DNA of 64,000 bases from Kalaharituber pfeilii (lineage: Eukaryota; Ascomycota; Pezizomycetes; Pezizales; Pezizaceae): contig WHUZ01000005.1 of NCBI GenBank assembly GCA_015179045.1, positions 310,001 to 374,000 of the forward strand. The letters run 5' to 3'. The notes beneath the pieces are model-generated. The model was not told the DNA's origin and searched no databases. It saw only the letters and a program-made list of their open reading frames with translations. The first letter of the stretch is position 1, and the number at the start of each line of letters is the position of its first letter. Below are positions 1,901-63,080 of the stretch, piece by piece. A program made the position numbers and the translations under genes.

Positions 1901-2324
1901 CAAAATTAGCACCTGACAGTGTCGCCCGACAACCGAAGAGGTCGCCCGACAAGTAAAAGAGTCACCCGACAAGCAAAAGAGTCACCCGACAACCAAAGAG
2001 AGTCGCCCGACAACAAAAGAGGGTCGCCCGACAAGCAAATAGAGTCGCCCGAAAAGCAAAGAGAGTCGCCCGACAACTGAAGAGGGTCAGGCGAAGTTTT
2101 TGTTTGCAGTAAACACCTACCGGACGTGTCGGGTGCATACAAAATTAGCACCCGACAGTGTCGCCCGACAACCGAAGAGGTCGCCCGACAAGCAAAAGAG
2201 TCGCCCGACAACCAAAGAGAGTCGCCCGACAACAAAAAACTGCCACCCAACAGCCAAATAGAGTCGCCCCACAACCAAATAGAGTTGCCCGACAAGTAAG
2301 ATGGGTCGCCCGACAAGCAAAAAG

Positions 2325-2415
2325 CTCGCCATAGCCTAGTCGTGCCAACCAGACTAGCCATAGCCCAAAGGGCGGCATGCGAGTACTGATATTAAAAAAA
2401 AAAAAAAAAAAAAAA
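2325..2415 (+). mobile_element. 5'-truncated LINE 3' end with poly(A), 12-bp target duplication
   Basis: The body is the recurring LINE tail (CTCGCCATAGCC ... GGGCGGCATGCGAGTACTGATATT) followed by about 22 A. It is flanked by ACAAGCAAAAAG at 2313-2324 and 2416-2427. The tail is itself interrupted by a 20-bp nano-insertion at 2337-2356, which duplicated GCCATAGCC. Confidence 0.9.
2337..2356 (+). mobile_element. 20-bp nano-insertion with 9-bp target duplication (type TAGTCGTGCC)
   Basis: TAGTCGTGCCAACCAGACTA is inserted in the LINE tail between two copies of GCCATAGCC (2328-2336, 2357-2365). All other copies of this LINE tail in the window read straight through the site. The ends TAGTC and GACTA are inverted repeats. 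The identical 20-mer recurs at 16828-16847. Confidence 0.88.
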
Positions 2416-2548
2416 ACAAGCAAAAAGAGTCGCCCGACAAGTAAAAAAGGTCGCCCGACAGCCAAAGAGAGTCGCCTGACAACCAAAAACTGCCACCCGA
2501 CAAGCAGAAAGTGTTGCCTGACAAGCAAGAAGGGTTGCAACTGCGTCG

Positions 2549-2591
2549 CCCGACGCTTGGCATTGCGGGCGACTGCCAAGCACGTCGGGTA
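2549..2591. repeat. hairpin closing the minisatellite
   Basis: CCGACGCTTGGCA pairs with TGCCAAGCACGTCGG across a loop containing GCGGGCGAC, giving a stem of about 13 bp with one bulge. It adjoins the palindromic array and may be its seed or a boundary. Confidence 0.6.
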
Positions 2592-2611
2592 AAATAAAGC
2601 CCCCTTTTCGG

Positions 2612-2960
2612 GTGAGTTACGTTCCAGACTACGGCCAAGCCATGGCGGAGGCCGAAAATAATAGTCTGGGCACGAGAACACACAATGGCTATATGAGCTA
2701 CATAGAGAATAAGCGAGCATCACTAGTCAAGTGTCTTTTTGGCCTGGCGGACGGTAATCTCTGCGTTTACCGCCTCCCTTATCATACAGAGTAGAGAAGC
2801 TGGAGATTAGCCCATGTATAATTGCATTCCTGTGCTTAGTAATGCCAAGATTGCACGAACCGCGCGCTAGCGCGATTAATGGCGCTTGAGTTCTGCCAAA
2901 GACCGAACTAGCGCGCGTTTGTTTTCTGTGAGTTAATTCGGTCGCTGTTTTGCCAAGATC
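2612..2960 (-). mobile_element. degraded LTR fragment with a MITE end inside
   Basis: Read on the minus strand, about 2700-2790 (GGTAAACGCAGAG ... CCGCCAGGCCAAAAAGAC ... CTTGACTAGTGAT) matches the solo LTR at 35911-36041 and a third copy near 38350-38430. Positions about 2650-2680 carry the right end of the MITE family ending TCTGGGCACGAGAACA, with the GGCCGAAAATAATA subterminal block shared with 38462-38546. Confidence 0.6.
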
Positions 2961-3047
2961 CACTAATGCAAGTGTATGCGTGTCTCACCAGCCCAAGGGA
3001 TAGCAAGAAAAGCCCGAATGTGGATCTCTCGGAGGTTTCCGCTGGGC

Positions 3048-3069
3048 CTAGGGGCTTGGTATGAGACTA
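3048..3069 (-). mobile_element. 22-bp nano-insertion with 9-bp target duplication
   Basis: The insert starts CTAGGGGCTTGG and ends TATGAGACTA. It lies between two exact copies of CCGCTGGGC (3039-3047, 3070-3078). The reverse complement of this insert recurs at 37722-37742 with a different duplication. Confidence 0.85.
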
Positions 3070-3645
3070 CCGCTGGGCTACACTTTCTCCAGCCACAATT
3101 GCCAACGAACAAGTTTACTGCCAGCTTCTTCAACTTATTTTATACTCCAAAATCTTGGAATCTCTGACACGTACAAATACGATACTAACTCCTCAATTTT
3201 CTAGATTTCATCGATTTTCTAAAGAGATTTAAGTACTGACAAAGGTTACTACTTGATTGCGGAATACCCTAGCGCCGCGCGGGGCGTTGGTTTCTACTTA
3301 TTTACTCCTCACAGGAACTGTACCATGGTCACAGTCTCGACTATGATAAGTTAACAGAAATAATCAATCCGAGCAGACCCCTGGCACGAGACTGCAGGAT
3401 CTCCCCCCTTGTGTGCACTCAGTTCCCTTCGAGAAAATTCACTAATAATTCAATAAACAAGCAAAAAAGAGATTACAGAAAATAGTAAAATCATTATCAG
3501 AGAGTTCAAATTGCTTTTTCAAAATTAAAAATTGGACCATTTCTGGCTGAGTTACAGTGGTTTCTAAAGTGGGGGGCGGGGGAGTCGTTCGGTAGGGGAT
3601 AGCATCTTGGTTCAAACGGCTGCCTCAAGTACTTTATCTGCATGC

Positions 3646-4145
3646 AGTGGCCCGTCGTAAGTCTTGGGAATTAGGCAATATTGGGGTAAGTGAATCATGC
3701 AGTTTTTTTCCTGTAGAGCCGCGATATGTCTCCGATATTAGATCCTCACCATAGGTCCGATAATCACCATTACAGTACCTCACATACCGGTACCGCACTT
3801 ATTCCTTTCTCCAATGTGCCCTCGCTATCACGACACATACTGCGCCTGACCAACGACACATGTAGTATGAAGCTCGAAACACAGCCACCGTTTGTCGCGG
3901 GCTTCCATTGGCCATGGCGGCCGCCGAGACCATTCCCCGGCCGCCGGGCTTCAACAATTCCGCCAAGGCGTTACTTGAGGTAAGTATCTACGTCTCTAAA
4001 GCACGTAGCCCGTGTGTAGCGTGCGCCCCCCAATGATCAGGCACGAAATGTGTGTCCACAGTGACCCGTTAAAAGTCTTGGCTTGCATGATACACTTACC
4101 TACCCCGATATTGCCTAATCCCCAAGACTTTTTACGGGGCCACTT
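3646..4145. mobile_element. about 500-bp TIR element (MITE) with roughly 58-bp inverted ends
   Basis: The left end AGTGGCCCGTCGTAAGTCTT ... GGCAATATTGGGG ... GAATCATGCA is matched in inverse at about 4088-4145. The inner part is not obviously coding: the frame at 3726-3983 shows no family motif. This is probably a non-autonomous DNA transposon. The TSD is not clear. Confidence 0.7.
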
Positions 4146-4665
4146 ATGTGGGTCCCTGCCTGACCGCCCCCAATCCGACCCTGATTAACTAGTGCTGCAT
4201 CTTGTGTGTTAGCTCCCACAGGTTGAGTCTGGGCATGAGCCATATACTCGGTCAACAAGCCGGTCATACATAAGCCTCAACCCCACTAAGGAATATCAAC
4301 CAACCAGACTAGTGGCCGCTCGCCTGCTTCTTATTCCTAATCTGGTTGTCTTATTTCAACTCCAGTAATTGACCGACGATGCAGTAATTTAAACCTTCAC
4401 CTCCCCTATCTCTTGGACGCCGATTTCTCTGGGTGAGATAGTCTCCGTGTTTCTATAAAGTTGCTCTACCAATTTTGACGCTGTCGTCGAGGACAGGGGC
4501 GCGGGACAACAGCGCTTGCGAGATTCTGTGGGGTTGAATAGGGATCAGCATAACCTCAGGTATGCTACCGTATTGATGTTATTCCTGAGGCTGGTGCAGT
4601 CAAGAACACTCAACGGGGCATCGGTACAAATTATGATCCTCAGAGATGGGAAGTGGAAAGAACCC

Positions 4666-4679
4666 TGGTTACGAGACTA
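4666..4679 (-). mobile_element. 14-bp nano-insertion with 9-10-bp target duplication
   Basis: TGGTTACGAGACTA sits between two copies of GAAAGAACCC (4656-4665, 4680-4689). Its reverse complement begins TAGTCTCGTAAC, the terminal repeat of the 62-bp MITE at 38107-38168. Confidence 0.82.
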
Positions 4680-4904
4680 GAAAGAACCCGATAACCTGTT
4701 AGATGCTATGTACTTGATATACTCTATATTAAATGCAAGGTAAACTGGAATTAAACCAACAGATTAACAAAAAAATAAAACTAAATATAAAAATAAATAT
4801 AAAGTAAATATATGTACAGGAGCAAATTTGTGCAAGCATATTCGCGCATCCCTTGGTACCCCGCTCGCTTGATAGCTATTGAGAATCATTTAGATGAAAG
4901 AAAC

Positions 4905-5830
4905 CTAGTGCTCGGATGTCCTTGTAGCAGCGAATTCAATCAAGTTCTGCCTTCCCGGAATGTTTTGTGCAACACGAGAATTGAACTTCATGACTCTCTT
5001 CCATGCCTGGAATTGTGCAATGCTCATCGGTAGGCTGTCTTGCACTACATACCATGTAACCGCTTCGTCGCAGGGTGGTGTAGTGAGAGAACCGGAATAT
5101 GTGTATATTGAAGATTTTTGAACTACACTCATGATTGATCTTGAGGGATATTTCTTAGCTCAAATGCCAAGTGGCACCATAATTTATCGTTCCACAATAG
5201 TCTCACCTAAAGTTAATATGATCAATAGTCTTGCTAGATCCATTTTCCTTGAGGGAATCTAGAGTATAAGTGGTAGAAAGAAGAAGATCGTCACCCCAGC
5301 CATATTTCAAGTCGAAGAATACCCCGACGACCGCCAGCTTCCCATCTGCAAGAAGTAGTTAGAATGATGAGCCAGGAGATGTGAATCTTATGGTACTTAC
5401 CAGCATCCTGATGGACAAAGTGAACCTCAAGTGGATAGAATTCCTCCAAAAATCGATGCTCGCTAGGTGTATGGAAATGAAATTGCACCAGTTCGTAAGG
5501 TTTACCCTCTAGAATTGCATCGTAGGTCCCATTAGCCCCGGCATCCTTGGGAGTGAAAAGAATTGTATGCCCGTTGTTTTCCACATGGACGTCCTGGCTG
5601 TATTCGGGATATTTGAGCACTAAGGGTTTCGCCAGCTTCACCCCTTCAGCTGGTGATACGTTGATTGGTGATTGATTCTTTCCGGTAGCGCAGAGGGTGC
5701 TGTTTGGCAAATAATGCCAACCTAGAGGTCCAAGTTCACCGGTATATCCGTAGGTCGCATCTGCTCGGGGATAGATGCATGCGGAAGCGAGTGTGGACAA
5801 GATTGTCACAAGGAAAATGGAGGCTTGCAT
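4905..5830 (-). CDS. secreted alpha-class carbonic anhydrase
   Basis: Three exons, 5830-5401, 5345-5207 and 5139-4905, with introns of 55 and 67 nt (GTAAGT..CAG and GTGAGA..AAG), give 267 aa. The enzyme interconverts CO2 and bicarbonate and, with the signal peptide MQASIFLVTILSTLASAC, should act outside the cell. The three zinc histidines are present as FHFH (H118, H120) in QFHFHTPSEH and as EVHFVHQD (H137). The proton-shuttle position NNGH (H88) and the substrate-site loop SLTTPPC are also intact, as is the early QSPIN motif. Length and domain order fit fungal alpha-CAs. The start was chosen because it gives the signal peptide at once and no earlier in-frame ATG lies nearby. Neighbours are repeats only, so context adds nothing about its role. 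Confidence 0.95.
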
Positions 5831-6537
5831 TTTGAGAAGTTGAGATGACAGTGAATGTATGAAGTTGGTATAATTAGGAGCCTGTTTATCTGGAAGGAAT
5901 GTAGATGTTTGAGAACAATATTGTAGGTTTGCTGGCAGAAGGAGTGGAAGAATTTAAATATTCCATCCCTATCTTCCAGGAGCTGGCGCTCGGCTAAGTT
6001 CACCGTCTACTAGGTTCCTTTCGAGACCATATCGACTTGCAGGGGTTCAGGATGGGACCTTGGTAGGAAGCAATGCACCACCTGAGTATGAACTGCGGGA
6101 CAACATCGCATCTACGTCTCTAGCACCACATTGGTCTGTTTGATCCCCCTCCACGAACAAGTGGCTTATTCCCGTAGATCAAGATATCATCGCGATCCAT
6201 GAGATCTTGCCGACAGCCGTTGGCGTAGAATGGGAAAGAAACTGTCAAAAGGCGAAATGCAAGCAAAGGCAAGCGCAGCTCTTCGAATTCATTGAATGTT
6301 CTCTCAAGATATGAAATCACCAGCGCCTCTCTGTAATTGAATGTTTTGCTACTTTACTTACTTTATCTTTCGCAATTTCTTTGTTTACTAGTATTTCTGT
6401 CTAAGACATACTTGTTGCTTGTATAGTAGTCGGATTACGGGACTAGTCGGAGCAACAATTTGAATTCCCGACTAGTGGCTATGTAGATGCAGAAGTGACG
6501 ACAGAAAAGGATCCATGAAGAATTGGTTCAACAGTAC
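5831..6537. other. upstream region of the carbonic anhydrase
   Basis: This should hold the CA promoter. I see no clear TATA box or gene here. Confidence 0.4.
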
Positions 6538-6903
6538 CTAATCTCGTGACCAGTACAGCCGCCCAAGGCCTGGAGACACAGAATCGGGAAGAAGGAAAGT
6601 CCAGAGTGTAGATGGTGTGGGGAAGAGACGGCGGAGCACATCTGGAGCGCATGCAGAGTCTGGAGGCAGAAGTGGCCAGGAGGGGCGGAGGCGGTGAGTG
6701 CCCCCCCGAAGGCGAAGGAGGATGGGAGGGACCCCCTGAGGGAGATGTTGAGGTGGGCGGCGGGCGCACTTGCTTGAGGTTATCCTACTGTTCATTTGGG
6801 GCACTTGCTTGGTGTTACGTCCTATCCTATTTCATTATATCATTATTTGTTTACCCTTATCCCCTATGTCGCCATAGCCTACAAGGCGGCATGCGATTAT
6901 TGA

Positions 6904-6933
<30 letters not shown>
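6538..6933 (+). mobile_element. LINE (Tad/I-like) 3' end with poly(A), 5'-truncated
   Basis: Plus-strand frames encode the C-terminal zinc-finger-like tail (ECRWCGEETAEHIWSACRVW, pattern C-x2-C-x4-H-x4-C, then WPGG). The 3' UTR follows, with TCGCCATAGCC ... GGCGGCATGCGATTATTGAT, then about 23 A. The same tail occurs at 9250-9957 and, inverted, at 7637-8385. Frames are broken, so it is inactive. Confidence 0.8.
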
Positions 6934-6935
<2 letters not shown>

Positions 6936-7636
6936 GAAGGACAGCTGCCAAGTTACTCAGCTCCTGAGAAGGAAAAAACGCTCTGGCATGAGACTAAAGA
7001 GCTCGTCCATTCCAATCATGAATTATTAACGTTGACCGAAGCGAGTTTTTTCAGGTTTAGCTTAGTCTCGTAACCAGGCTTTAACTGGGCGTTGCTCTCG
7101 TTCCGAGGCTAGCTTGTAATATATTCACTGTCCCTGTCCCCGCCTCAGGCAGCGCTGTAAACCGGGTAACATTATGATAGCGAGGAAAGAAATACCAGAC
7201 TCAGACCAAATTCATAGGGCTTAGATGAGCATCGCTTATTTATACCTTCGATAAACACACGATTATCAATTTAGAAACTTTCTGAAGTATAACAGATTGA
7301 AACGTACGTATACTAGTAAATGAAAACACTAAAGAATCCCTATATCATATATTTCTCGCTGCGGAAGCATATTTGTTTTTTAGGCTTGCTGTGAAATGCA
7401 ACCTTGGTAATCTGAGCGAGATTGCTGAAATCACCAATTATTCTAGCAGACCTCAGCTCTGTGGCAGTTGCCGTAGCAGTTTACAGTGTCCTCCTGCCTT
7501 AGGCTACGTTAACATCTATGGTAGACAGTTGAAGAGCAATGGGTGGGTTCTTTCGTCATTAGGCAAGCGCGGTTTTTAATTACCCCTATGCCCAAAGGTG
7601 CTACGAGCATAAACTCCGTAGAATTTACTATTCTAA

Positions 7637-7696
7637 TCATTACTCGTTTGCCGCCCTACGGGCTATGACGAGAACAAATACATAAGAAATAAAAGG

Positions 7697-7730
<34 letters not shown>

Positions 7731-8385
7731 ACTATTAACAATAAAGAAAATAAAAACCAATTCAGACCATTGTCCCGAAGTCCCTGGCCCTGTCATCTCT
7801 CCATCCACCTCAGCAGATCAGCCAGTGGGTCCCCCTCGCCCTCCTTGGCCACCAGGAGCGTCTTCATCGCTTCAAACCCTCCTGACCAGCTTCTTCACAC
7901 CTCGCACCTGTTCCAAATGTGTCCCTGCTTCCTCTTCCATCCCACACCACCTGCGTTCCAGGCTGTCTGCCTTGCCGACTTTGTGTCTCCAGGCCCTCAA
8001 GCCTTTTCCTCCCATCAGGCCTCCAAAGGTGCGCATGCGCACAAAGCTACCCAATCTCTGTAATGGTGTATAGTTCGAACCAGTCTGTTTCTTTCCTGTG
8101 CTCGTTGTGCATGCTTTGGCAATTGCCCGAAGTGCCGCTTCCGTTACTCATGCCCATAGGGCGGCACGGGAGTAATGATATATATATAAAAAAAATAAAA
8201 TTTACCACCTCATCCTGGTAGGGGAGGAAGGTTCCCAGCCTAGTTTGCCTCTTCGTTTCCCTCAGGGCCTGTGTCCTTTCACCCACGTGACAGCCACATC
8301 TAGAGCCCCTCGGCTCGCCCTTCCTTCCCAGGCCTTTCGGCATATGTATCTGGCTCGTTCCATCAGGGGTCGGGCCTCCCATCGT
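7637..8385 (-). mobile_element. LINE 3' end, inverted copy, with a second LINE tail nested in it
   Basis: Minus strand: an RNase-H-like remnant near 8240-8310 ends in the phrase GTFLPYQ shared with the copy at 9250. The Cys/His tail follows (GLRAWRHKVGKADS, WCG) at about 7872-8010, then the tail motif at 7637-7672. A plus-strand LINE tail with an A-rich end (about 8140-8195) is inserted in opposite orientation. A run of about 40 A lies at about 7699-7727. Confidence 0.7.
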
Positions 8386-9240
8386 AAAACTTACTGATAG
8401 TAATTCCTCACTGCTGCATTCGGCGTCATTGAGAACTCAGGTTACTAGACGTGGTACGTGATACACAAGGTTGCTCAACATGGCGCGCGGGAGGCTTCCT
8501 AGGAGTAAGACCCCTGGGTATGATATCAAGCAAGACCGTTTTGTAAGTACTATAGATTAGCCCCGTGAAATATTAATATAGTGAGAAAACAGTCTAGCAG
8601 AGCAACATAAAGTAGTCTCGCGACAATGTAATACTGGTTTGTGCATGGCTCGCTGCCCAAAAGAGCCGAAATGGCCACCCTATCATGTAGTAAAATTCAT
8701 TTATGTGGCCTAGTCTATCTAGTCAGCTCAAGCAAATACAGCAGAATTGTAGCCGTAAATCTCTGTCTGTTGTGCTAGCTGAGCCTGATGCCAGGTTTGG
8801 CTATGGATTCCTGCTTTCAAGCTGAGAGATCAGGCCGAGGACTTGAAGCCTAATATAAGGCCTCCAGCTAATGTTCATGTTCCAGATCCCACATGTGCAC
8901 AGGCTCACACTAAAATGGCAGGTCGTTAAGAATGTTAACAGATTGTTATTTGTATAACTCTGCAGCTGGATTACGTATATTGCTCAAGTCGAAGAGTTTC
9001 GAGACGATAAGGTGCACCATAGGTACTAATTTATCTTGTCGATAGCAACTCTTACGTATACCTCCCAATATGGTAACTGAAGCTTAGTCAGAAGCTGGAT
9101 CTGTCCGCAGGCTAGTATCTATGCAACGTAGCTTACAATGGCCATAAAACTCTAATCAACGTATTCTCAATGTGGATATTATGATACATTACTTTTTGCA
9201 ATTCAAGTTGACCAGCTGCATGGTTGATGTTAAACATTCA
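8386..9240. other. intergenic, no gene seen
   Basis: AT-rich sequence without motif-bearing frames. No clear repeat was found. Confidence 0.4.
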
Positions 9241-9249
9241 GTTTTGGGA

Positions 9250-9957
9250 AGGGGCGGGCATATGGCAGGGCAGCAGGAGAGAACAGAATATCTGGGCATA
9301 AGGGCCAGTCAACGACGCCGAGCTGATAGCCATAGCCAAAGCTCTCGGAACAGGGGAGCCTGGGAGGGCAGGGTGACCCGCAGAAGCCTGGACGTAGTGA
9401 TAATGTGGGTGAAAGGACACAAAGGCATCAAGGGAAATGAAGAAGCAGACAAGGTGGCGAAGGTAGGAGCCTTCCTGCCCTACCAGCTGGAGACAGTCAC
9501 GGAAGCAGGCATGCCCATGTCAGCAAAGGCATAACGAACATAGGAAAGGAACAGGCTAGGCCTGAGCTACAGGCCACTGCAGAGACTGGGAGGTATGGTG
9601 CAAACACTGGCAGGCCTACTAGGCGGGAAAGGCCTGAGGGCCTGGAGACACAAAGTGGGTCAGGCGGACAGCCCGGGTTGCAGAGGGTGCGGAGAGGAGG
9701 AGGAAACGGTGACGCACTTATGGGATAGGTGCAAGACGTGGAGGAGGAAATGGCCAGGGGGAGAGGAGGCGCTATACAGGGCTCCAGCAGCGGGCGAAGG
9801 GAAGGGGGACCCCGTGATGGACTTGCTGAGGTGGATGGAGAGATAACAGGCCCGCGTTTATTTTACATTATTTATTCTCCTATTTATTTCCTATTTATCC
9901 CCTATGTAACTATTCTCATCATAGCTCACAGGGCGGCACACGAGTAATGATTGTAAA
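9250..9957 (+). mobile_element. LINE 3' end: RNase H plus zinc-finger tail and 3' UTR
   Basis: Frames carry the RNase H end motif WVKGHKGIKGNEEADKVAK (about 9403-9460), then a stop and frame change, then GLRAWRHKVGQ and a C-x2-C-x8-H-x4-C tail (GCRGCGEEEETVTHLWDRC, about 9670-9735). The UTR motif and an A-rich end follow. It is the best-preserved copy of this LINE in the window, but it is truncated at the 5' side and frameshifted. Confidence 0.85.
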
Positions 9958-9988
9958 AAAGAAAAAAATTTCAGATTTGGGAGGTTGT

Positions 9989-9991
<3 letters not shown>

Positions 9992-10026
<35 letters not shown>

Positions 10027-10067
10027 TCATTATTCGCATGCCGCCCTATGGGCTATGGCGAGAGGGG
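9992..10067 (-). mobile_element. LINE-tail retroposon, minus strand, 9-bp target duplication
   Basis: About 34 T followed by GTCATTATTCGCATGCCGCC ... CTATGGCGAG, flanked by GGTTGTCAT at 9983-9991 and 10068-10076. It consists of only the last ~45 bp of the LINE plus poly(A). Confidence 0.88.
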
Positions 10068-10092
10068 GGTTGTCATGGCCTACCCAAGAAGG

Positions 10093-10457
10093 GTGCAGTT
10101 GGGCAATGAAACATGGGTCAGGCACGGATGTGTATTGCAAGGATCTGACGACATGGTAATAAGCCACTGGACGGACCTCTAGGAGCAAAGCCACCGAATG
10201 GACCTCCAGGAGCAGAGCCACTGAACGGACCTTCAGGAGCAGAGCCACCGGATGGACCTCTAGATAAGACGAGGCAGTGACTAAGAGATATCTATAGATA
10301 GAACATCATGATATCATAGCAAGTTAGACAATAGATGGAAGGCATGTAGGATTGGCTATAAGAAGGGCTAGCAAGAGCTGCCCTCTCAAAGGTCAAGCAC
10401 CAAGCGTTGTCCTAAGTACACCCTCATATTTATTACATCATCGTATAAACCGTAACA
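10093..10457 (+). mobile_element. LTR remnant, plus orientation, with internal 28-bp tandem repeats
   Basis: It ends CCGTAACA. Its left part (ATGAAACATGGGTCAGGCAC...) reappears inverted at about 12955-13050. Its right part, from AGATAAGACGAGGCAGTGAC to the end, reappears inverted at about 11289-11610. Positions 10175-10262 hold three copies of a GGACCTCYAGGAGCARAGCC-type unit. This copy preserves the uninterrupted versions of two sites that carry insertions in the inverted copy. Confidence 0.7.
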
Positions 10458-11030
10458 GAGGTGTTCTCATATAATGTTTTGTATAAGAGTATGAATATTG
10501 TGAATAACTACACAACAATAGTAGATAGCACTCTGCAAGTCTTCTGGTACTTTCACATGATGTGAAATTATATGAAATGTCCAAGTACTTCTATGAAATT
10601 TATTGTCAGCGTGGTATGCAAAAGTCCATACTGGTGATAATGGGTGGTAAAAGTACTAAGACCTGATATAAAAATGTGTTGAGTCCTGGGAACAAGGACT
10701 CGTTGAGTCATAGTTCCTTGAAAAGGACAATTATGGGGAAGCAGAAATATGGATTATGAAGAACGGCCATTGATTTAGCTCGCCAGCAAAGCGTATAGAA
10801 ACCTTTGTTGTGGTGGTTGAGATATATGCTCTTCTCGATCGTCAATTTTGGTGTAAAAGGTGCGTGGGAGGTTGCCTTGTGGTGAAATGCAGTATACACT
10901 TCAACCTACCTGACGGAGATAGCTACCGTAGAAACAGGATTCATGATTACACATTATTATTAGGGATGAGCCTTATGACCGAACGAGGGCCGCGCGCCCG
11001 TTTTCGACTTCCACCCGGGTCTCTTATCTC
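10458..11030. other. intergenic, no gene seen
   Basis: No motif-bearing frame and no recognised repeat. Confidence 0.35.
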
Positions 11031-11036
11031 ATATAA

Positions 11037-11200
11037 CTTCTTCCTTTTTTTTTTTTTTTGGTCATGTAACCCACATACAGGCTACCGGGCCCGGATCTCG
11101 TATAACCTTTTTTTTTTGATCACGTGACCCGCGTGCCGCTGTTCGCCATGGTAGGTCTAAACCCTCAAAGCCCGGAGGCAGGCTTCTCGTATAACTTGAA
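11037..11200 (-). mobile_element. two short poly(T)/CACGTGAC retroposons sharing one target word
   Basis: Two units of poly(T) plus GGTCATGTAACCC... and poly(T) plus GATCACGTGACCCGCGTGCC...TTCGCCATGG are bounded by three copies of the word CTCRTATAACYT (about 11027, 11095, 11190). This suggests successive insertions into the same duplicated target. Confidence 0.65.
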
Positions 11201-11310
11201 TACATGCTACAGCTATGACGGTATGACCTAGTACAACTGACTTTAGTTACAGGATGTCCTCGCCCGAAGGAATTATAGAGACGCTAACTGTTACGGTTTC
11301 TACGATGATG

Positions 11311-11354
11311 ATGTTTTTTTTTTGTTTTTTTTGTCACGTGACCCCGCATGCGGC
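11311..11354 (-). mobile_element. poly(T)/CACGTGAC short retroposon, 8-bp target duplication
   Basis: The insert runs from ATGTTTTTTT to CCCCGCATGCGGC between CGATGATG (11303-11310) and CGATGATG (11355-11362). The sister LTR at about 10434-10457 reads ACATCATCGTATAAACCG with no insert. Confidence 0.85.
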
Positions 11355-11395
11355 CGATGATGTAGTGAATAGAGGGTGTAACTTACGACAACACT

Positions 11396-11470
11396 TGTTC
11401 TCGTACCCAGACGGGCACTGATGCTGCCAAGAGGTGGAAAGACCCAGTGCTAACTCTGGGCACGAGAACA
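11396..11470. mobile_element. 75-bp MITE, 16-bp inverted ends, 9-bp target duplication
   Basis: The ends TGTTCTCGTACCCAGA and TCTGGGCACGAGAACA are inverted with one mismatch. It is flanked by GACAACACT (11387-11395) and GACAACGCT (11471-11479). The sister LTR (about 10405-10425, CAAGCGTTGTCCTAAGTAC) is the empty site. A 9-bp duplication is the usual signature of the Mutator (MULE) superfamily. Confidence 0.9.
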
Positions 11471-11745
11471 GACAACGCTTGGTGCTTGACCTTCGAGAGG
11501 GCAGCTCTTGCTGGCCCTTCTTATAGTCAATCCTGCATGCCTTCCATCTAATGTCTTACTTGCTATGATATCATGATGTGATATCCCTCAGCCACTGCCT
11601 CGCCTCATCTAAACGGAATGTCTCTGTCCAGTCAGATAGTGACTGGACAGAAGCCGGGACAAGTGTTACTAGCTATATATATTTAGTGCGACTGCTGGTC
11701 TACTAGTACGTACAACCCATGTCCTGACCGATATCCCCTCAAGCT

Positions 11746-12420
11746 GCCAGACTACCACCTTCTCCAAAACTTTATCCTCCTTACATGCTATCCTGTGTTA
11801 GTGCAGGATAATAAAATATTGAGTATAATTGTCTGCAATGCTGTTGAGCTCTTGAATAGCTCAACAATTGGCTAACTCTTGGTTCAGCCATCAGCACCAG
11901 TAGGCTCATGTATGGAGTCAATGCTGTTAGTCTTTGGGTTACGCAAGGTAGATGTGCCAGATGCTGTTCAAAATTGTGTCTGGAAGGTTTGCTCTGGAAA
12001 GGTAAACAGTGGCCAGATGCGAATTTGCAATGCTTGCATTGTCTGTTGAAACTCTTGAACCTGATGTGCTGCCATGTGAGAGCAGGTTGTCCAGCAAAAG
12101 TAGGCCTCGTATTGGTGTGAGTAGATTATTGTTGGTTTGAGTGTGACTAACACAAGCTTCCTTAAGATGACAAGATTCTACAAAGATCCTTTCATAGCCT
12201 TGGTCAAATACGAAATGCTCGGGATATCAAATGGATTTTCGGCTATCCCACGGGCATGATCACATTCATTTACTCCAAGTAGCCAATCCTTTCGAATGAT
12301 ACCATCATGGAGCTTCTCAGCGTTCTTTAGAGATTGATATACCTCCCATTTGCTGCCTAGGCAGCGATGTTACTCGAGGTCAATGATTAACCTCTACATA
12401 ATTTAAGTATCAACTTGACT
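11746..12420. other. possible retrotransposon internal remnant
   Basis: This lies next to the LTR remnant. Frames on both strands are broken and show no reverse transcriptase, RNase H or gag motif I can name. Confidence 0.3.
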
Positions 12421-12779
12421 TACCAATACCAGAGTCTGGGCACGAGAACAACCAATACCTGCCATTGACGACGCTTTTTTCCAGATCTATCCTCCATTAT
12501 ACCACCAATGGCTTTATATTCCTTTTGGGTCACTGCGGTGGCTGTTAACCCATGCCGGCTACGAGGAGTATCCCCATAGCGGACACATCTGTACCGGTTT
12601 CTTCCAAACTGCTCGGGCCTACTTGCTACCCAAATCAAGAAGCCGTGCATAAATAAGCCTGCAGTCGGGTTTTTCATAGCCCTTGGGTTTAGTCCATAGC
12701 TTTCATCCTTAGAATTTTTCAAATATGCAGTCAGCACAGCAGTCATGATTTTATGGGCACATAGGAGATATGCAGACAT
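12420..12779 (-). other. uninterrupted 119-codon frame, unrecognised
   Basis: The frame contains word-like stretches (DESYGLNPRAMKNPTAGLF, RYGDTPRSRHGLTATAVTQ) and reads less random than its surroundings. It matches no family I know, and the 20-bp nano-insertion interrupts its 3' part. It could be a fragment of a transposon protein or of a dead gene. I do not assign a function. Confidence 0.25.
12431..12450 (+). mobile_element. 20-bp nano-insertion with 9-bp target duplication (type AGAGTCTGGG)
   Basis: AGAGTCTGGGCACGAGAACA lies between two exact copies of ACCAATACC (12422-12430, 12451-12459). The last 16 bases equal the right terminal repeat of the MITE at 11396-11470. The same 20-mer with the same left edge occurs at 20063-20082 and, inverted, at 38178-38197. 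Confidence 0.88.
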
Positions 12780-12884
12780 TGTCGTTTTGTGCGCTTTTTC
12801 AATGAATTTTCGTGATTACAATCTGTCCCTGCGCCCCGGGCATGGGCTGTACGTACTAGTGGATTAGCGGTCGCTTGTATATAG

Positions 12885-13065
12885 TTAGCGACGCTTATAT
12901 ATATCCCGGCTTCTGTGCAGTCACTTTCTGACTGGACAGAGACATTCCGTCATCTAGAGGTCCGTCCGGTGGCTTATATTGTGCTATGACCATGCCGTCA
13001 GATCCTTGCAATACACATCCGTGCCCGACCCATGTTTCATGACAGACTGTAACTATCGGTTGATC
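12885..13065 (-). mobile_element. LTR fragment, inverted relative to 10093
   Basis: On the minus strand, CATGAAACATGGGTCGGGCA ... GGATCTGACGGCATGG ... GGACGGACCTCTAGATGAC is nearly identical to 10097-10180. Its adjoining CTGACTGGACAGAGACATTC links it to the copy at 11600-11660. Confidence 0.7.
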
Positions 13066-14600
13066 AGGCCGAACCGTCACTAGCAGCTTTACAGGTCAAT
13101 AATGGGTGGATATCCGCTTGCCGGGTAGGCCGTGACATTAAGCAATGAGACAGGTTTGGGAGCAACTTTAAGATTACTCGCTTCTTTTTCAACGAGCAAT
13201 CAAGAGTCACTCTGATTGCTGGATGCGACTCTTCTTCACACAGTTAGTGGTCCCTTATAGAGCATAACTACCACTGGATTTATCCGGGCTGTTTTTTTTT
13301 GGGTCCCTTATAAAAAGTGGTCTCATATATATAACTTCAGATTTTCGTAGTATCTCATGATTCAATTTCTATGGCATGTTTGCGAGTATACATATTTCTC
13401 AGCTAAGCCGGGTTTGCAATGCACCTTACTAAAACCTTATGAGTCGGCGCATTGGACCAAGTAGTTTCGTGATAACACTTAGGTAGCGATAAGGCATGGA
13501 ATTTACATTACCAGGCTAATTGAAACAAAGTACATACGCTCACTTCAAAATAATATGGGTCCTCAGTACGGACTAATCCGAGTCAGTCCATACATATTTG
13601 CAATTTGCCTGCGAGGAAGCAGGCACCCATATAGCAGACTATCAGAATATACTTGTATATACCCGGATGAAGTTTCATATCAGTTGGCCTAGGCAAATTC
13701 CTGGCCGGAACGCCCAGGTGCATAGGGTACTTGATGGAATATTCTTGTTGAGTTTCTGCAAAATCGTGTTAAACATTAGGCACCCGAAGAGGCGGTCGGG
13801 AAATGCTCGGTACTTAGGAAATGGAGAATTTGTCAAAAGAAGAAATTCAAAAGGCTCTTATTAAGTAGGGACTCGTGGTATTATATCTTTGCCCGCACTA
13901 AAAGAGAGTTATCTGCCTAGCTATACCATTGATGCCGGCTACTATCCACATGTATTTAACAGCTGCAAGTGGGGTTACATGATGGAAAAAAGAAAATAAA
14001 AAAAAATGAGGCAAGCAAGATGCGCAATAAAGAGGAGCTGGAGAAAGAGGCACTCGAAAGTCAACACTCTGGCGTTGTCCCCATTTACGGCCCATCTTAG
14101 GTAATCTCGCGTAGCACCGTAGCATGCTTCTCGAATGATCACTGCATCTCGCTCCCGGCAGCCCGAATAATGGTTCTGTGAGTGGGTGCTTAAAGCAGCA
14201 CGTGATTTGTGGCGCTGCATCCGGGCGCTGCATCCGGGCGCCGCATCCGGTGCCCGACACTTATGGCGCAGACGGGCACTGCCTATTGGGGCAATTAGGC
14301 AAACTGGAACTTATCGCGGTCCGGGGACGGGCGCACGAGTCTTCTACCAGCGGCAAAAAAACTGTACGACGTTCCGTGGAGCCGGAGCCCAAGTGCATGC
14401 ACGTGTACCGATCTTGTTGGTTATAGCCGTAGATATAGCATAGCCAGTAGCGGAGCACTCTGTATTTCAGGGTGTTATGATACACATGTCTACCTTAAAG
14501 ACAGCGAAAGTGGCGTCGCTGCCTGAGTGGCTACAGTCTGCATGGCTATAGCGTCGGGCGGCCTGTGTGCACTGAGAGATTGTCACATGATGCGGTCTTT
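13066..14600. other. intergenic, mostly featureless, one short retroposon
   Basis: Around 13961-14013, AACAGCTGCAAGTGGGGTTACATGATG plus an A-rich tail matches the short CACGTGAC retroposon family in plus orientation. At 14212-14250 a GGGCGCTGCATCC unit is repeated three times. No gene is recognised. Confidence 0.5.
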
Positions 14601-14606
14601 GATGAA

Positions 14607-14613
14607 TATAAAA
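14607..14613 (+). promoter_or_regulatory. TATA box of the arginine deiminase gene
   Basis: TATAAAA lies 134 nt before the chosen ATG at 14747. It is followed by a pyrimidine-rich leader (ATCTCTCACTAG...TCTTCTCC) typical of fungal promoters. Confidence 0.5.
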
Positions 14614-14746
14614 GCGAAGCCGATTATCTCTCACTAGAGCGTCTTCTCCATAGTTTAGATGTATGGAAGTTGTTCACTGCTTGAACAGAAGCGCATTTAC
14701 TCCTTGAGAACCGCACAGCGTTCAACAGCCGCATTCTCGGACAGCA

Positions 14747-16668
14747 ATGAAACTCCTCAATGCTATTGCCCTGGTCTCCAGCCTAATAGGTATCCAGTCC
14801 TTCTTCTATCCAGGTTTTCCGTGCCATTGAGCCCAATAGCTTTTACTGACTCAGTTGCACATAAAGGCACCCACACCTCACTTGCATCTGCGGTTTCTTC
14901 CTCCTTCAAGCCTGACATCCGTGTTGATACCAACCGTGACGGGATTGTCGATATCTCGCCTCTCTCAAAGGATATTGAAGGCAAAAACACCTGGACACTA
15001 CAGCGTGGCGCCATTTTTATTGCCAACATCGGCTACACCATTCCCCCATCAGAATGTCCAGTTCCCATCTTCAAGAGTTATTTCTGCAACAACGGTGTCC
15101 AAGACACAGCGTTAGCGCCAGAGTATCTGGCCCCAATTCGCACTGTGCCATTGAAAGGGGTCGTCCCAGAGGGCATTGTGGGAAGAATAGAGGCCCTTGG
15201 TGAAGCAAAGTTTCACACCTCCATCTTCTACAAGGACAGTGGCAACTGGACAATTACCACTGCAGAGAAAACTTTCACAGTAGAGCAGTTGAAGAAGGGT
15301 CTCGAATTAGGTATTCAAGGAAAGGAGTTGGTTCGAGATGACCGCATCTGGGACGGCACAGCCAGAATCCGCTTCTCTCTAAATGACCCTGCCTCAAATG
15401 TTACTGCTTCTGATGAGGCAATGCTGAAGATTGCCCCTGTCTTGACGCATCACCATTTACAACGAGCCACGAAGGTTTTCGCCTCAGGTGGAAACGACAC
15501 ACTCCCTGATCAAGTACTTTTCACAGCGAATATGAGTAAGCAGGTCAAGGAAGCAGGGATTAGGGAACCCGTTCATCTTTTCCAGGGCTCTGACGATCCA
15601 TGGGCACAGGACTTTTTTGAACCTGGCTACACTTCCTTTCCAGGACCAGATGGGCCAATAATCCTGAGGATTCTCCTTCGTTCTCCTCAGCCTACACGCG
15701 CTAGTGGGGGTCAGCTTCTGGGGGAGTTAGCTGCCAGAGGAGTTGGTGTGGTTGAGACTTCTGATGGTAGCCGTGTTGAGATCAATTCTATGGGTAACTT
15801 AGAAACCATACCACCCTACCGGCATGATGGTCGGGAATTTCCCGCCGGTCGAATTCTGATTGGAGAATGGAAGGATCAGAGGATGGCATGGGGCCTCGTG
15901 GGGTTGCTGAAGGCCCAGACAGTGCAAGATCCGCTGTTCATGGATACGGACTGGTTGCGGGCCGGGCACGTCGACGAGGTCTTCCAGTTCTTACCGGACA
16001 ATGAGGTTAAGTCATTGCTGAAAGATGGTTATAAGCCGTGGAGGGTCGCAGTGGCGTCCCCAGCATACGCATTAGGGCTTCTTCGCAAGGCTGAGAAAGC
16101 CGGATTCGGGAACACCAAACTTGTTTCCAGGGACAAGTCGTTTGGCGCTCACATCCCAGATTATACGATATCATCTTACCTTGCCAACAAGGAGAACATA
16201 AAGGTTAATGAAGCCGCATGGAAGCGTATCCAGGGGAATATTGACCAGCTTCAGAAGGAAACAGGGGTAAGGAAGGAGGACATCATTTCCCTTCCCGTCT
16301 TGTACGAGAACAATAACGGCTTCAACTCTGGCTCGTTCTATGGGAACTATAATGCATCTAAGTTCTATGGCGGGGATGTCCTTGCACCAATTCCTGCTCC
16401 AGTTACTGCGGAGAGACTGAAGGTCGGGCCCGTGCTGCCCAGCGCAGTGAACGGGCTGCTATTGACGGATACGAAGGTTGTGGCGCCCAGGCAGTGGGGA
16501 CCGGTGATTGAAGGGAAAGACATCTTTGAGGAGGCGATCGAGAACGAGTACAGGAAGCTGGGAATCCAGGTAGCATTCGTGGATGATTGGACGACGCATC
16601 ATGAGGGTGGGGGGGATGTGCATTGTGGAACGAATAGCTTCAGGGAGGGAGGAAAGTGGTGGCTTTGA
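14747..16668 (+). CDS. secreted protein-arginine deiminase (peptidylarginine deiminase)
   Basis: Two exons, 14747-14789 and 14855-16668 (65-nt intron, GTATCC..CAG), give 618 aa beginning MKLLNAIALVSSLIV, a signal peptide. The long frame that starts at 14659 lacks a signal, and the splice joins it in phase. PADs convert peptidyl-arginine to citrulline with calcium. The catalytic set is complete: WAQDFFEPGY (D267), GHVDEVFQF (H386, D388) and GGDVHCGTN near the end (C605). Other family marks are the calcium-type loop DTNRDGIVD near residue 39 and GNLETIPP. The N-terminal cupredoxin-like domain of animal PADs is absent, and the protein starts at the middle domain. The branch site CTGAC lies only 5 nt from the acceptor, so the exact intron edge is slightly uncertain. 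A retroposon is inserted at the stop codon and leaves the protein unchanged. Confidence 0.95.
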
Positions 16669-16671
16669 GGT

Positions 16672-16733
16672 TTTTTTTTTTTTTTTTTTTTTGATCACAT
16701 AACCCCGCTTGTAGCACGTGGCCATGGCAGGGT
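16672..16733 (-). mobile_element. short poly(T) retroposon at the PAD stop codon
   Basis: About 20 T and GATCACATAACCCCGCTTGT...GCCATGGCAGG are flanked by GTGGCTTTGAGGT at 16659-16671 and 16734-16746. The duplicated target includes the TGA stop (16666-16668), which therefore also exists at 16741-16743. The PAD message now has an insertion-derived 3' UTR. Confidence 0.93.
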
Positions 16734-16827
16734 GTGGCTTTGAGGTTAGTGCACGGAAATGAGATAGGGACGATATATATTGATGCGTAGTGTTTACATT
16801 CAATGCGGCAAAGAAATCATTGAGGGA

Positions 16828-16847
16828 TAGTCGTGCCAACCAGACTA
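16828..16847 (+). mobile_element. 20-bp nano-insertion with 9-bp target duplication, identical to 2337-2356
   Basis: TAGTCGTGCCAACCAGACTA lies between two exact ATTGAGGGA copies (16819-16827, 16848-16856). Confidence 0.9.
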
Positions 16848-16859
16848 ATTGAGGGACTG

Positions 16860-17920
16860 GTATTCGAATGGCAATTGATTGTAGTATAAGTTGGTTTGGG
16901 GATTTCGATAGCAGTTTTGAATTGAAGGTATTTATGCGAGAACTTTATGTGATGGGTGTTCTAGGGCAGCCTTTTTAAGGGTTTCGTGCAAAGGGCAGAG
17001 TTTATAGTATTAGGGTTAGCTGGGGTGCAGAACACAGGACGTGGTTGCAGTCTCGTAACCAGACGCTGACTAAGAGTACTTACTACTTCTTAGTAGTTGC
17101 TTTGAGATTGATAAGGATTTATGTCTTGAGATATCTGTTTGTTTTTTTTGGTTTCATTCCCTTTGTTTAATTGGTATCTTGAGACTTTAGGCAATATTAC
17201 TTTTCTTACCTTTTAAGTATCTCTATATAATACTGCATATACCATAGGTAGTCTTATAATCTAGCTACATCAATCTCATATCATTTGAATCGATATTTGG
17301 AAGGTATGGATTTGTACATTCACAGTTGCTACATGCTCAAGCATATGTACATGTACAACCCTTTTTTCACACAAGGCTCCTGGTGCTCCTCGAAAGGTAC
17401 AAGAACCTTCTCCAATGCCCTCCCCAACCTCTCTGAAATGAATATAAAGTTCATTAGTATCGACTTCTCTACAAGCAAATTCACAGTTATCAAGGTTAAA
17501 ATATCAACACAGGACAAAGTTTGAGCAGATGAGAAAATGAGCACTGGGACGGACATCACAAGTGGTGGCAAGACTGGACACAAGTAAAGCCATGCCTCGC
17601 AAACTTAATTGACCTCCAGGGGAACTCCATGCAATTCTATATCCTTAGCTTCCACATTTCTAGAATGCTTGCAACTCTTTCACCACCATCCAGTTCCACA
17701 TACGCGACATCATGTTATTAGCACCCCTCAGATGACCTCTCAAGCACCTCGTCCCCCTCATGTTCATAAAGCGCTTCTTCTTTAAAATAGTTATTGCCAT
17801 TTTGTCATGAGAAAATAGTTTCATGGTTAGATGGCGTTTCAGAAAGCTTGCGAACCTCGCTAGCACTTGCAACAGCGGTAAAAGAAATTTCAGCGGCTCG
17901 CATCGAGTCCCTGTTTCTCC
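16860..17920. other. intergenic between PAD and the small membrane protein
   Basis: At 17050-17073 there is another GTCTCGTAACCAGACGCTGACTA sequence, the body of the 37590 nano-insertion, here without a visible target duplication. No gene is seen. Confidence 0.45.
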
Positions 17921-19475: not shown

Positions 19476-19570
19476 CGACCGATTGAGCGACTGATTGAGC
19501 GACCGATTGAGCGACCGATTGAGCGACGGATTGAGCGACTGATTGAGCGACCGATATGTACGACTGATAT
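19476..19570. repeat. GACCGATTGAGC-type short tandem repeat
   Basis: The unit of about 10-14 bp (GATTGAGCGAC) is repeated 7-8 times. The minus-strand Ser/Arg/Ile frame over it is a translation of the repeat. Confidence 0.8.
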
Positions 19571-37194: not shown

Positions 37195-37589
37195 GATACG
37201 TAGAATATCGAAGTTAAGCTAAAGTATAGTAATCTTACCAATTCATCTCAAAAATATTTATCAAATTCACTTAAGTTTTCTTTAGCATATTTTAGTTCTA
37301 GTCAATGTTTACATATTTGATGCTTCTCAAGTACACTTAAGGCCCGATGTTTTTGTGAGTGATACATATTGATGTCTTTGGCTAGGTATGCGAACAAGTT
37401 GATGTTACTTCATTCATTTCCTATTTTAGTAATTATTTGAATTTACAAAATTATATCACCCCCCTATCTATCAAGCATTTTTTCTATACCGAAATCTTGC
37501 TATACCGGACGAAAAGTGCCAGATTTTAGCGATCCGGTATAGCAAGAGGTAGACTGTAGGGATGGGCAGCAAAATAGAATGGAAATTGC

Positions 37590-37614
37590 TAGTCTCGTAA
37601 CCAGACGCTGACTA
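37590..37614 (+). mobile_element. 25-bp nano-insertion with 9-bp target duplication
   Basis: It starts TAGTCTCGTAACCAGAC and ends GCTGACTA, between two exact GGAAATTGC copies (37581-37589, 37615-37623). It is absent from the sister MITE at 34668-35082. Confidence 0.88.
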
Positions 37615-37721
37615 GGAAATTGCCTAATTTGGAAGTAGATCGACAATGACAACCTAAATTTAATTATGTAAAGTCAAGTTTAGTAAGCGTGTTCAAGGTG
37701 AATGCAAAGGTGGGGCAGCCA

Positions 37722-37742
37722 TAGTCTCATACCAAGCCCCTA
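37722..37742 (+). mobile_element. 21-22-bp nano-insertion with 9-bp target duplication
   Basis: It starts TAGTCTCATACCAAGC and ends CCCTA, between two GGGCAGCCA copies (37713-37721, 37743-37751). The sister MITE reads GGGATAGCCAAGATTGGACG without it. It is the same element as 3048-3069 in the opposite orientation. Confidence 0.88.
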
Positions 37743-37911
37743 GGGCAGCCAGAGATTGGGCGTATAAGTTATTAATGTATCAGATATAGCAAATATTATT
37801 TGTATGGAGACAGGGGGGCAAGTGCCTGGCAATTCCTGTCCGGTCCAGTATTCTGTGTGCGTCCGGTATAGCAAGAGAGTTTTGTATAGGAACGGAATGT
37901 GGCAGCCTGAG

Positions 37912-38106: not shown

Positions 38107-38168
38107 TAGTCTCGTAACCAGACTTATTCAGTGTCACATGGAACTGGAGTAGCGACGTTACGAGACTA
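38107..38168. mobile_element. 62-bp MITE with 12-bp perfect inverted ends
   Basis: The ends are TAGTCTCGTAAC and GTTACGAGACTA. Its left end continues CAGAC as in the 25-bp nano-insertion. The 9-bp flanks (GCACTAAAT, GCATTGATG) match at only five positions, so a duplication is not shown. It looks like a parent form of the TAGTCTCG nano-insertions. Confidence 0.7.
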
Positions 38169-38559: not shown

Positions 38560-40127
38560 AAAACTACCCAAATACCGTCTCTCTCAGCATTGTTGGTGTT
38601 GACGGCGCTGCTGGTGCTAGTACTCAAAACATCCAGAATTATGCTAAGGATCTAACTAACCCTACTTATATACCTTAGCTGAAGTGGAATACTATATGCA
38701 TAGGTTGCAGCAATAGAGGTAGCTGCAAGCGCCATGGAAAGATGTAAAATTGAGAGTCCCAGTTCAGTTGTGAGTTGGGGAAGAGGATTGTTCAGCATCT
38801 CCCTGAGATGGACTGTGATACTCTGATTCCATATGATTAAAATCTATAATCATATGGAACTAGAATAGTCCATTTTCAAATTTCAATAATTATGCTGCCT
38901 TTATGCTGTCAGCATATTGTAAGTCGATTTGCACTTGGGTAGTAATGGTTTAGACAAGTAATGATGTTAGCATTATTCTACCTTAATCAGGATCCGTTAT
39001 AATAATGGTTTAGAATAAAAAAATGTAAGCTATACAATCACGAACTTGTTATCATAGCCATGTACTGTCATGTGTCATACATTGTATTACAGTGGATCTC
39101 TGATATTTATGTTGTAGTTTCTAAGCTGTTATGGTAACAGCATCTCGTAACGCAACAGCCCTTGTTATAACTTACACCTGTGATGACTACCTCACCTAGT
39201 TTGCAGACTATACCTCACCAATACTCACCAGCTCTAGGTGCAGATTTGTATCTTGCAACAACTTCTCGCCACTCTTTTGAACTGTAGTACTTACGATATG
39301 AGAGTTAAGTGGCATCAGCTACCAAGCGCAAAATGCGTCACACCTGCTTATTATTTGAACTTTCAATGCTGGCGACACACATAATTGCACTAAACGATTT
39401 TAAAGCAGTTCTACAACCATTTGTGCGACTGACAAATTTTTGGTGCAAGTAGTAATGGATTCTAATGTGACTTTGTGCATTCTTGATGTACTGCATGGCG
39501 AAGATCTTAGTTGTGATTGGTTGCTGAAAGAACAATGCTTTGGGGGCTTGACTTAAATTATGTTGAATTTAGGTCCTGGCGCTAGACAGATGAGGTGTAG
39601 GTGTGGACTCTACATATGTATCTCACTCTGCTGTGACCTCGTATCATGCAGGCGTAGCATCATAACCCCTGCTGTATGCCAAACTGATCAGTAGATTTCA
39701 ACCATTTAGCGGGAGGTTCTAAAATTCGAATTAAGACGGTAGTTTACTTCGTACCCAAGTCGCACACCAGTAAACAACGTCTCTCAGGACGTGTGCATCC
39801 TAGGAATTATTCCGATTGATCAGTTTCAACCTCACCCTTAAGAATACATGCCCCATGGATAGGCATACGGCACCAGTCTCGATCCCACTATCCAACCTCT
39901 CGTATGTGTCATTTGACTCATGTCTTACTCCAATAATGGTGCCCCAGGCATAGTAACCACATCCTTGAATTTGTTTGGGGGAGAATGGAGGCTTCCACAG
40001 TAGGGGACGATATGTTATTTGCGCAGATACATATTCCGTACAGTCCCCAGTGCTTCCCCACTACAGTATCATGAGCGCCCAGTTTCAGTGCAACTGAGTG
40101 ATATCGACCAACGTTGGGAAACACGCA
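38560..40127. other. intergenic upstream of the betaine-lipid synthase
   Basis: AT-rich sequence. A short inverted repeat lies around 38830-38870 (CCATATGATTAAAATC/ATAATCATATGG). No gene is seen, and the BTA1 promoter should lie in the last few hundred bases. Confidence 0.4.
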
Positions 40128-62747: not shown

Positions 62748-63057
62748 GGTCATGGAGAGCATAGGCAAGTGACAGCCGTTGAAACGTCTAACCTGAGATG
62801 AGATCTCCTACTTTAATCCGTGCGTGTCAGTGAAAGAGTTTTCTCGCAGGATATTGAATTTAGTGTTTTCGTTCCCAGCTGCGGACGAAGAGAGAAAGAG
62901 ATCTTGCGTCCGCGATGTAAATGATAAGACCAACGAAAAAAGTATCTCGCTGGTGAAAAAAGCATGTAATAATCTTCGTCTTAAAGTCAGTTGCTGGCTC
63001 TGCTTGTCCATTATTTTCATACCCTTGTCCGACTGTAAGTGCGAGATGACACTAAGC

Positions 63058-63071
63058 TAGTCTCGTAACTA
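63058..63071 (+). mobile_element. 14-bp nano-insertion with 9-bp target duplication
   Basis: TAGTCTCGTAACTA lies between two exact ACACTAAGC copies (63049-63057, 63072-63080). It is little more than the 12-bp terminal repeat of the 62-bp MITE at 38107-38168 with TA added. Confidence 0.87.
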
Positions 63072-63080
63072 ACACTAAGC

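Follow-up and report, generated by a model that had tools for sequence, protein, structure and literature searches.

Two identical 20-bp inserts in the desert truffle Kalaharituber pfeilii as probable excision footprints of a terminal-inverted-repeat DNA transposon

Introduction

Footprints that hold part of the element ends are a known result of cut-and-paste excision, and interrupted gap repair is known in other cut-and-paste elements. Mutator-like elements (MULEs) make target duplications of 8–11 bp, AcademH elements are reported to make duplications of 9–10 bp, and the usual size of miniature inverted-repeat transposable elements (MITEs) is far above 20 bp. Here we describe two copies of a 20-bp insert, TAGTCGTGCCAACCAGACTA, in a 64,000-bp stretch of the genome of the desert truffle K. 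pfeilii (contig WHUZ01000005.1, positions 310,001 to 374,000, forward strand; hereafter, the window). Both inserts are very probably excision footprints of one family of terminal-inverted-repeat DNA transposons, named F1, whose 9-bp target duplication lies within the MULE range and agrees with the value reported for AcademH.

Several described systems come closest. The P element transposase of Drosophila cuts the two strands far apart and produces a 17-nt 3' single-stranded extension (PMC10983969). When Muta1 excised in yeast from constructs that lacked flanking duplications, as much as 13 bp of the terminal repeat was occasionally left behind; with duplications present, excision was ~90% precise (PMC5225508). 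Among 94 rice DNA-transposon excisions, 8 left just the two duplications, and the rest showed flank deletions, filler sequence or both (PMC4423477). AcademH elements (Kojima, 2020) include helicase-bearing DNA transposons reported from fungi (PMC10799480).

Results

Two 20-bp inserts with unrelated target duplications

The 20-mer was found at positions 2337–2356 and, with the same letters, at 16828–16847, both on the plus strand. Each copy was flanked by its own exact 9-bp duplication: GCCATAGCC at 2328–2336 and 2357–2365 for the first site, and ATTGAGGGA at 16819–16827 and 16848–16856 for the second. The two duplications are unrelated, and both the coordinates and the letters agree with the first-pass annotation of this window, made from the sequence alone, which had pointed out the pair. 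The first insert lies in the tail of a repeat resembling a long interspersed nuclear element (LINE). As also noted there, other copies of this tail in the window are intact: it is uninterrupted at 10033, 25185 and 37938 (minus strand), with a single CCATAGCC in each case. The tail at the first site is itself embedded in an array of ~20-bp units holding TCGCCCGACAA (window 1921–2540).

When the search was extended to the whole 78.0-Mb, 360-contig assembly, as had been proposed, exact TAGTCGTGCCAACCAGACTA was present at these two sites only. With up to three mismatches allowed, 3 matches were obtained in the window, compared with a mean of 0.02 for shuffled sequences, and 208 in the whole genome, compared with 4 for the reversed control. 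The sequence GGGTCGTGCCAACCAGACTA, which is the end of the larger element F1, made up 58 of the ~100 matches listed among these 208 (hand count); 9 of the listed matches had no fetched locus, and ends shorter than ~17 bp are under-represented.

The first-pass annotation regarded the 20-mer itself as the transposing unit. Such an ultra-short element would have to be mobilised in trans by the enzyme of F1. In line with this explanation, the two copies are identical, have exact but unrelated 9-bp duplications, are located 14.5 kb apart in the same orientation and lack a third exact counterpart. However, the composition of the insert and the variety of its siblings, described below, make it very improbable.

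The 20-mer is a composite of two F1 ends

Fifteen bases of the 20-mer, GTGCCAACCAGACTA, are one end of F1, a larger inverted-repeat element. The other five (TAGTC) match the opposite F1 end, and the junction falls at GTC, which is common to both ends. A complete F1 copy of 4904 bp was found at locus L034 (1028–5931), with the 9-bp duplication GGATTTTAG on both sides and near-perfect terminal repeats of ~85 bp (estimated by eye); a full-length element with matching ends and matching duplication length is thus present in this genome. Two further copies, L031 (5801 bp) and L032 (8641 bp), possess F1 ends and have no matching duplication. Four F1 spans with both ends located (C15:133974-139774, C26:31889-40529, C320:115627-120530 and C223:619693-623450) were used for the domain analysis below.

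The exact 15-bp F1 end occurred at 164 places genome-wide. In searches allowing two mismatches, 22 ends extended to 35 bp and 12 to 41 bp; old mutated ends may escape these longer patterns, and the 15-mer count is exact. Reversed controls gave 0 in all three cases. An 82-bp, almost palindromic, two-ended F1-like insert with the duplication ACTGTGTCC was observed at L039 (1635–1716) and may represent a MITE.

F1 remnants vary in length and are mostly one-ended

Automatic parsing yielded 92 F1 rows, comprising 9 full-length-like ends and 83 short ones. The left boundary was taken as the best of several dozen offsets, and by our own arithmetic a match at 8 of 9 flank positions would arise by chance in well under 1 row per 100. 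Independent events are fewer than rows, because the L006 site is present on both strands and L073 and L074 share a duplication and nearly the same insert. After removal of one duplicate strand, 46 of the 83 short rows contained inserts of 15–58 bp whose flanking 9-bp duplications agreed at no fewer than 8 positions (31 exactly).

In these 46 rows the second end was usually missing: it amounted to no more than 1 bp in 34 of them and to at least 4 bp in 11. Identical inserts recurred, with lengths of 35 bp (five times), 29 bp (four), 21 and 15 bp (three each), and 20 and 30 bp (two each). TAGTCGTGCCAACCAGACTA is one remnant class among several and was seen twice.

These siblings bear directly on the proposed movement of the 20-mer. 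It retains only 5 bp of one end, compared with terminal repeats of ~85 bp in full F1, and its relatives of 15–58 bp have the same type of duplication although most are essentially one-ended. Because one-ended siblings bear duplications too, the duplications do not require a moving short piece. In addition, one-ended pieces of 15 and 22 bp without inverted ends recur (see below). The first-pass annotation had offered as its alternative the remnant of a larger excised element that always leaves the same 20 bases and both duplications; the excision origin and the retention of both duplications are favoured by the data, whereas the constancy of the 20 bases is not, since the remnants vary and fall into recurring lengths.

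A different origin of one-ended remnants is interrupted gap repair, in which, once the element has left, repair begins to restore it from the sister chromatid but stops within a few bases. This is the main alternative to staggered cutting within the footprint explanation, although we regard it as rather unlikely. Aborted repair accounts for one-ended remnants with intact duplications, and it fits L064, where ~41 bp are retained, as well as L078 of another family, F3, with 45 bp. However, it predicts a broad spread of lengths, whereas short F1 remnants nearly always ended by 35–36 bp: the retained F1 end was at most 36 bp in all 83 short rows except L044 and L064, and the 43 bp of L044 represent a full F1 end carrying a small deletion. 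Moreover, only 12 of the 164 F1 ends reach 41 bp, and identical one-ended lengths recur. Ten F1 ends reach 35 but not 41 bp, seven of which were read (L024, L046, L048, L052, L059, L066 and L087); a good duplication adjoined the 34–35-bp piece in six of them, L059 being the one without.

Remnants of other families and the TAGTC scan

The window contains at least seven more inserts with related ends, each between exact 9-bp copies. On the minus strand, a one-ended 22-bp F3 remnant, TAGTCTCATACCAAGCCCCTAG, lies at 3048–3069 between copies of CCGCTGGGC (3039–3047 and 3070–3078), and a one-ended 15-bp remnant of family F2, TAGTCTCGTAACCAG, at 4665–4679 between copies of GAAAGAACC (4656–4664 and 4680–4688). 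Two other minus-strand inserts are the 20-bp TGTTCTCGTGCCCAGACTCT, named F4, at 12431–12450 between copies of ACCAATACC (12422–12430 and 12451–12459), and the 14-bp TAGTCTGCAAACTA at 39197–39210 between copies of TACCTCACC (39188–39196 and 39211–39219). Three inserts are on the plus strand: the 25-bp TAGTCTCGTAACCAGACGCTGACTA, an F2 start, at 37590–37614 between copies of GGAAATTGC (37581–37589 and 37615–37623); an F3 remnant of 21 bp (22 with a shared G) at 37722–37742 between copies of GGGCAGCCA (37713–37721 and 37743–37751); and the 14-bp TAGTCTCGTAACTA, also an F2 start, at 63058–63071 between copies of ACACTAAGC (63049–63057 and 63072–63080).

The same short pieces recurred elsewhere. The F2 15-mer TAGTCTCGTAACCAG had 777 exact copies genome-wide and the F3 22-mer TAGTCTCATACCAAGCCCCTAG had 124, few of either being read with flanks; both reversed controls gave 0. 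One-ended flanked F2 examples were found at L057 and at window positions 4665–4679, and at L089 with one changed base. For F3, five of the six exact places in the loci and the window directly abut the duplication (one at 8 of 9 positions and one sharing the last G), and the sixth is L078; three diverged F3-like places were left out of this count. Thus, pieces without a second end also show the pattern of the original pair, in which a short sequence recurs at different loci and is flanked by a separate 9-bp duplication at each.

The 25-mer TAGTCTCGTAACCAGACGCTGACTA was likewise seen with differing flanks, its duplication matching at 9 of 9 positions at 37590 and at 8 of 9 at L021 (1908); no duplication was seen at its copy at window position 17048, where the first base is C. 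A 62-bp sequence at 38107–38168 has F2-like ends on both sides and no clear 9-bp duplication, and an F4-like end follows closely.

An unselected scan of five-base words was then made in 287 kb, comprising the window and the flanks of fetched loci with the F1-selected centres masked, for cases where the 9 bases preceding the word were copied again 8 to 60 bases later. TAGTC was the only strong outlier: 26 of its 522 sites qualified, where 0.44 would be expected, and the runner-up gave 4 of 585 against 0.49. The 26 rows represent 21 distinct inserts, of which 8 lie in the window and the remaining 13 in 223 kb of flanks. Naive scaling would give several thousand such inserts genome-wide, with the reservation that the flanks are not a random sample. 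In a count that included F1-selected loci and scored inverted inserts from both strands, 106 of 700 TAGTC rows had 8 or 9 matching duplication bases (73 exact); for 11 other words, the number of exact cases ranged from 0 to 8.

The duplication length was specific, with 9 bp dominating over 8 and 10 bp: inserts starting with TAGT or ending with ACTA, from loci partly chosen through F1, had exact repeats of 7, 8, 9, 10 and 11 bp in 16, 6, 36, 10 and 1 cases, respectively. Inserts that begin with TAGTC, end with GACTA and are flanked by exact duplications numbered 13 at 12–59 bp, 1 at 60–200 bp, 0 at 201–1000 bp and 1 at 1001–9500 bp (mean control 0); most loci were 3 kb long, so long two-ended elements are under-counted here. 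Similar scars, many of them one-ended, are common in the parts of the genome that were read.

Chance or an assembly artefact can practically be dismissed as the source of these inserts. No point in its favour was found, and it is contradicted by the excess of duplications at TAGTC and by the reversed controls, which were empty for both 15-mers as well as for the 22-, 35- and 41-mers. It is also very unlikely that short fragments of transposon ends were captured and inserted by the enzyme rather than left by excision. Such insertion would likewise produce inserts with a single end and a recurring length, flanked by intact 9-bp duplications. However, end joining at an excision gap would naturally yield two-ended composites with GTC or TC at the junction, and no transposase known to us inserts one short end in this manner, which counts against fragment insertion.

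Candidate enzyme and gene content of F1

F1 copies hold pieces of a RecQ-like helicase. The DEAD domain was detected with E-values of 1.4e-13 in L031 and 5.8e-12 in L032, and Helicase_C with 4.4e-11 and 3.1e-10, respectively; the helicase match in the L034 span is broken. A Pfam search with 20 translated F1 pieces returned the helicase domains, RNase H in one L032 piece and sub-threshold matches, and no transposase. The first-pass annotation had taken the 9-bp duplication as typical of Mutator-type transposases. The length is indeed within the MULE range, but none of 80 genomic matches to the MULE transposase domain PF10551 fell within the four F1 spans, and a MULE enzyme was set aside as a candidate. 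The KDZ domain PF18758 had 0 matches in this genome, and control genomes likewise gave 0.

F1 copies also contain an open reading frame (ORF) of 174–175 aa that resembles the start of DUF6589 proteins. It had no Pfam match above the cut-off, and a protein search with the 175-aa version retrieved three K. pfeilii proteins only. A genome search gave 14 matches. Two weak matches, one at C339 (31% identity, in an open frame of 631 aa) and one at C335 (50% identity across 58 residues, 581 aa), lie upstream of DUF6589 (PF20231) matches on the same strand, and the open-frame length reported for each equals that of its DUF6589 match. At C68 (73%) and C293 (44%), the ORF matches are located 0.7–1.1 kb upstream of DUF6589 matches.

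Genome-wide, 36 DUF6589 matches were grouped by eye into 23 places, and several of the frames are unbroken, up to 993 aa; DUF6589 genes lie, for instance, at C314:261158 and C339:323344. A helicase match within ~4 kb, facing DUF6589, was observed at 11 places (C339, C335, C314, C296, C35, C223, C57, C298, C327, C352 and C181) and was lacking at 12. These helicase matches are mostly weak, with 26–38% identity in 9 of the 11. In the F1 copies L032 and L034 the helicase faces the other gene, in the same order as at the DUF6589 places. A literature search coupling DUF6589 with transposition found nothing. A DUF6589 protein is a putative F1 enzyme, suggested by the shared upstream ORF and the gene order.

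Other features of the window

The second 20-mer site lies 160 bp beyond the end of an ORF at 14659–16668 that encodes 669 aa. Across 88% of its length the product shares 97% identity with a K. pfeilii protein, and its relatives bear a protein-arginine deiminase domain (PF03068). The best named relative outside K. pfeilii is from Terfezia claveryi (70%), and many matches of ~40% were found in Streptomyces and Fusarium. A short tandem repeat with a ~12-bp, GATTGAGCGACC-like unit occupies 19476–19560. An Rfam search of the window gave no match.

Discussion

The excision-remnant explanation of the two 20-mers is well supported by the data presented here. According to it, F1 inserts with a 9-bp target duplication, as seen on L034, and after its exit the gap would be sealed with both duplications retained and short stretches of the element ends left inside. 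In the two 20-mers, 15 bp from one end would have been joined to 5 bp from the opposite end at the GTC that both contain. The recurring one-ended lengths (15 bp in F2, 22 bp in F3 and 35 bp in F1) may reflect cuts offset between the strands that leave 3' overhangs, by analogy with P elements. If the transposase cut with an offset of n bases, n-base 3' overhangs would remain at the donor site, and ligation of one overhang to the opposite flank would leave a scar of n bases from a single end, with the duplications on either side intact. Staggered cuts of this kind would fit the F2 15-bp, F3 22-bp and F1 35-bp classes, and the F1 classes of 20–22 and 29–30 bp would need trimming or pairing of the overhangs.

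Several observations weigh against this explanation. In 36 of the 83 short F1 rows no more than 7 of the 9 flank bases match, and the footprint explanation does not account for these rows. F1 remnant lengths cluster at several values (~15–18, 20–22, 29–30 and 35 bp) rather than one, and L064, which retains ~41 bp of the F1 end and one extra G, breaks the 35-bp limit. Staggered cuts alone leave L064, L078 and the F1 classes of 20–22 and 29–30 bp unaccounted for. Only 14.5 kb separate the two exact 20-mers, which share one orientation, as a mobile 20-mer predicts; this arrangement could also stem from local hopping of the parent element or from how the pair came to be chosen. The data come from one genome, and the origin of the remnants by excision, as opposed to the insertion of short pieces, is inferred. 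Rice excisions mostly delete flank or add filler (PMC4423477), and Muta1 excision with duplications is mostly precise (PMC5225508), unlike the pattern in K. pfeilii. Finally, none of the 36 DUF6589 matches falls within the four F1 spans, and the link between F1 and DUF6589 therefore consists of the common upstream ORF and the gene order only.

A broader proposal is tentative: fungal transposons with DUF6589 and a facing RecQ-like helicase might cut with family-specific staggers of ~15, 22 and 35 nt and thereby stamp fixed-length one-ended scars between intact 9-bp duplications, thousands of which would be kept. It is weakened by L064 and by the lack of a DUF6589 match inside F1. A limited search of the open literature (titles and abstract openings) found no mention of one-ended footprints of fixed length. 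If the proposal is true, the genome is a readable log of past jumps.

The scars keep both target duplications and stop at recurring positions. If their origin is confirmed, a single genome would suffice for a count of past jumps (for F1, 12 ends extending to 41 bp against at most ~150 shorter ones), and the scars would hint at the cut positions of an uncharacterised transposase. The case is also a reminder that very short inserts, even when identical and flanked by target duplications, are not necessarily very short transposons.

Compared with known systems, F1 resembles AcademH in that it also encodes a helicase (PMC10799480). Kinship to AcademH is a lead; DUF6589 does not appear in the main text of that paper. 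Mutator-like elements such as Muta1 (PMC5225508) have duplications of 8–9 bp, similar to the 9 bp found here, but differ in the transposase domain, which had no match in the four F1 spans. With MITEs, F1 shares short non-autonomous inverted-repeat forms, if the 82-bp two-ended insert with its 9-bp duplication at L039 is counted as one, whereas the 20-mer retains only 5 bp of one end.

The rice study provides a comparable genome-wide set of excision scars (PMC4423477). In contrast to rice, the 46 good-flank rows described here keep both duplications, and their inserts are mostly the element's own end; such preservation of the duplications is unusual. The P element shows that end sequence can remain at the donor site after offset cuts (PMC10983969). 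The remnants in K. pfeilii differ from it in being flanked by 9-bp duplications and in recurring as one-ended pieces of 15, 22 and 35 bp.

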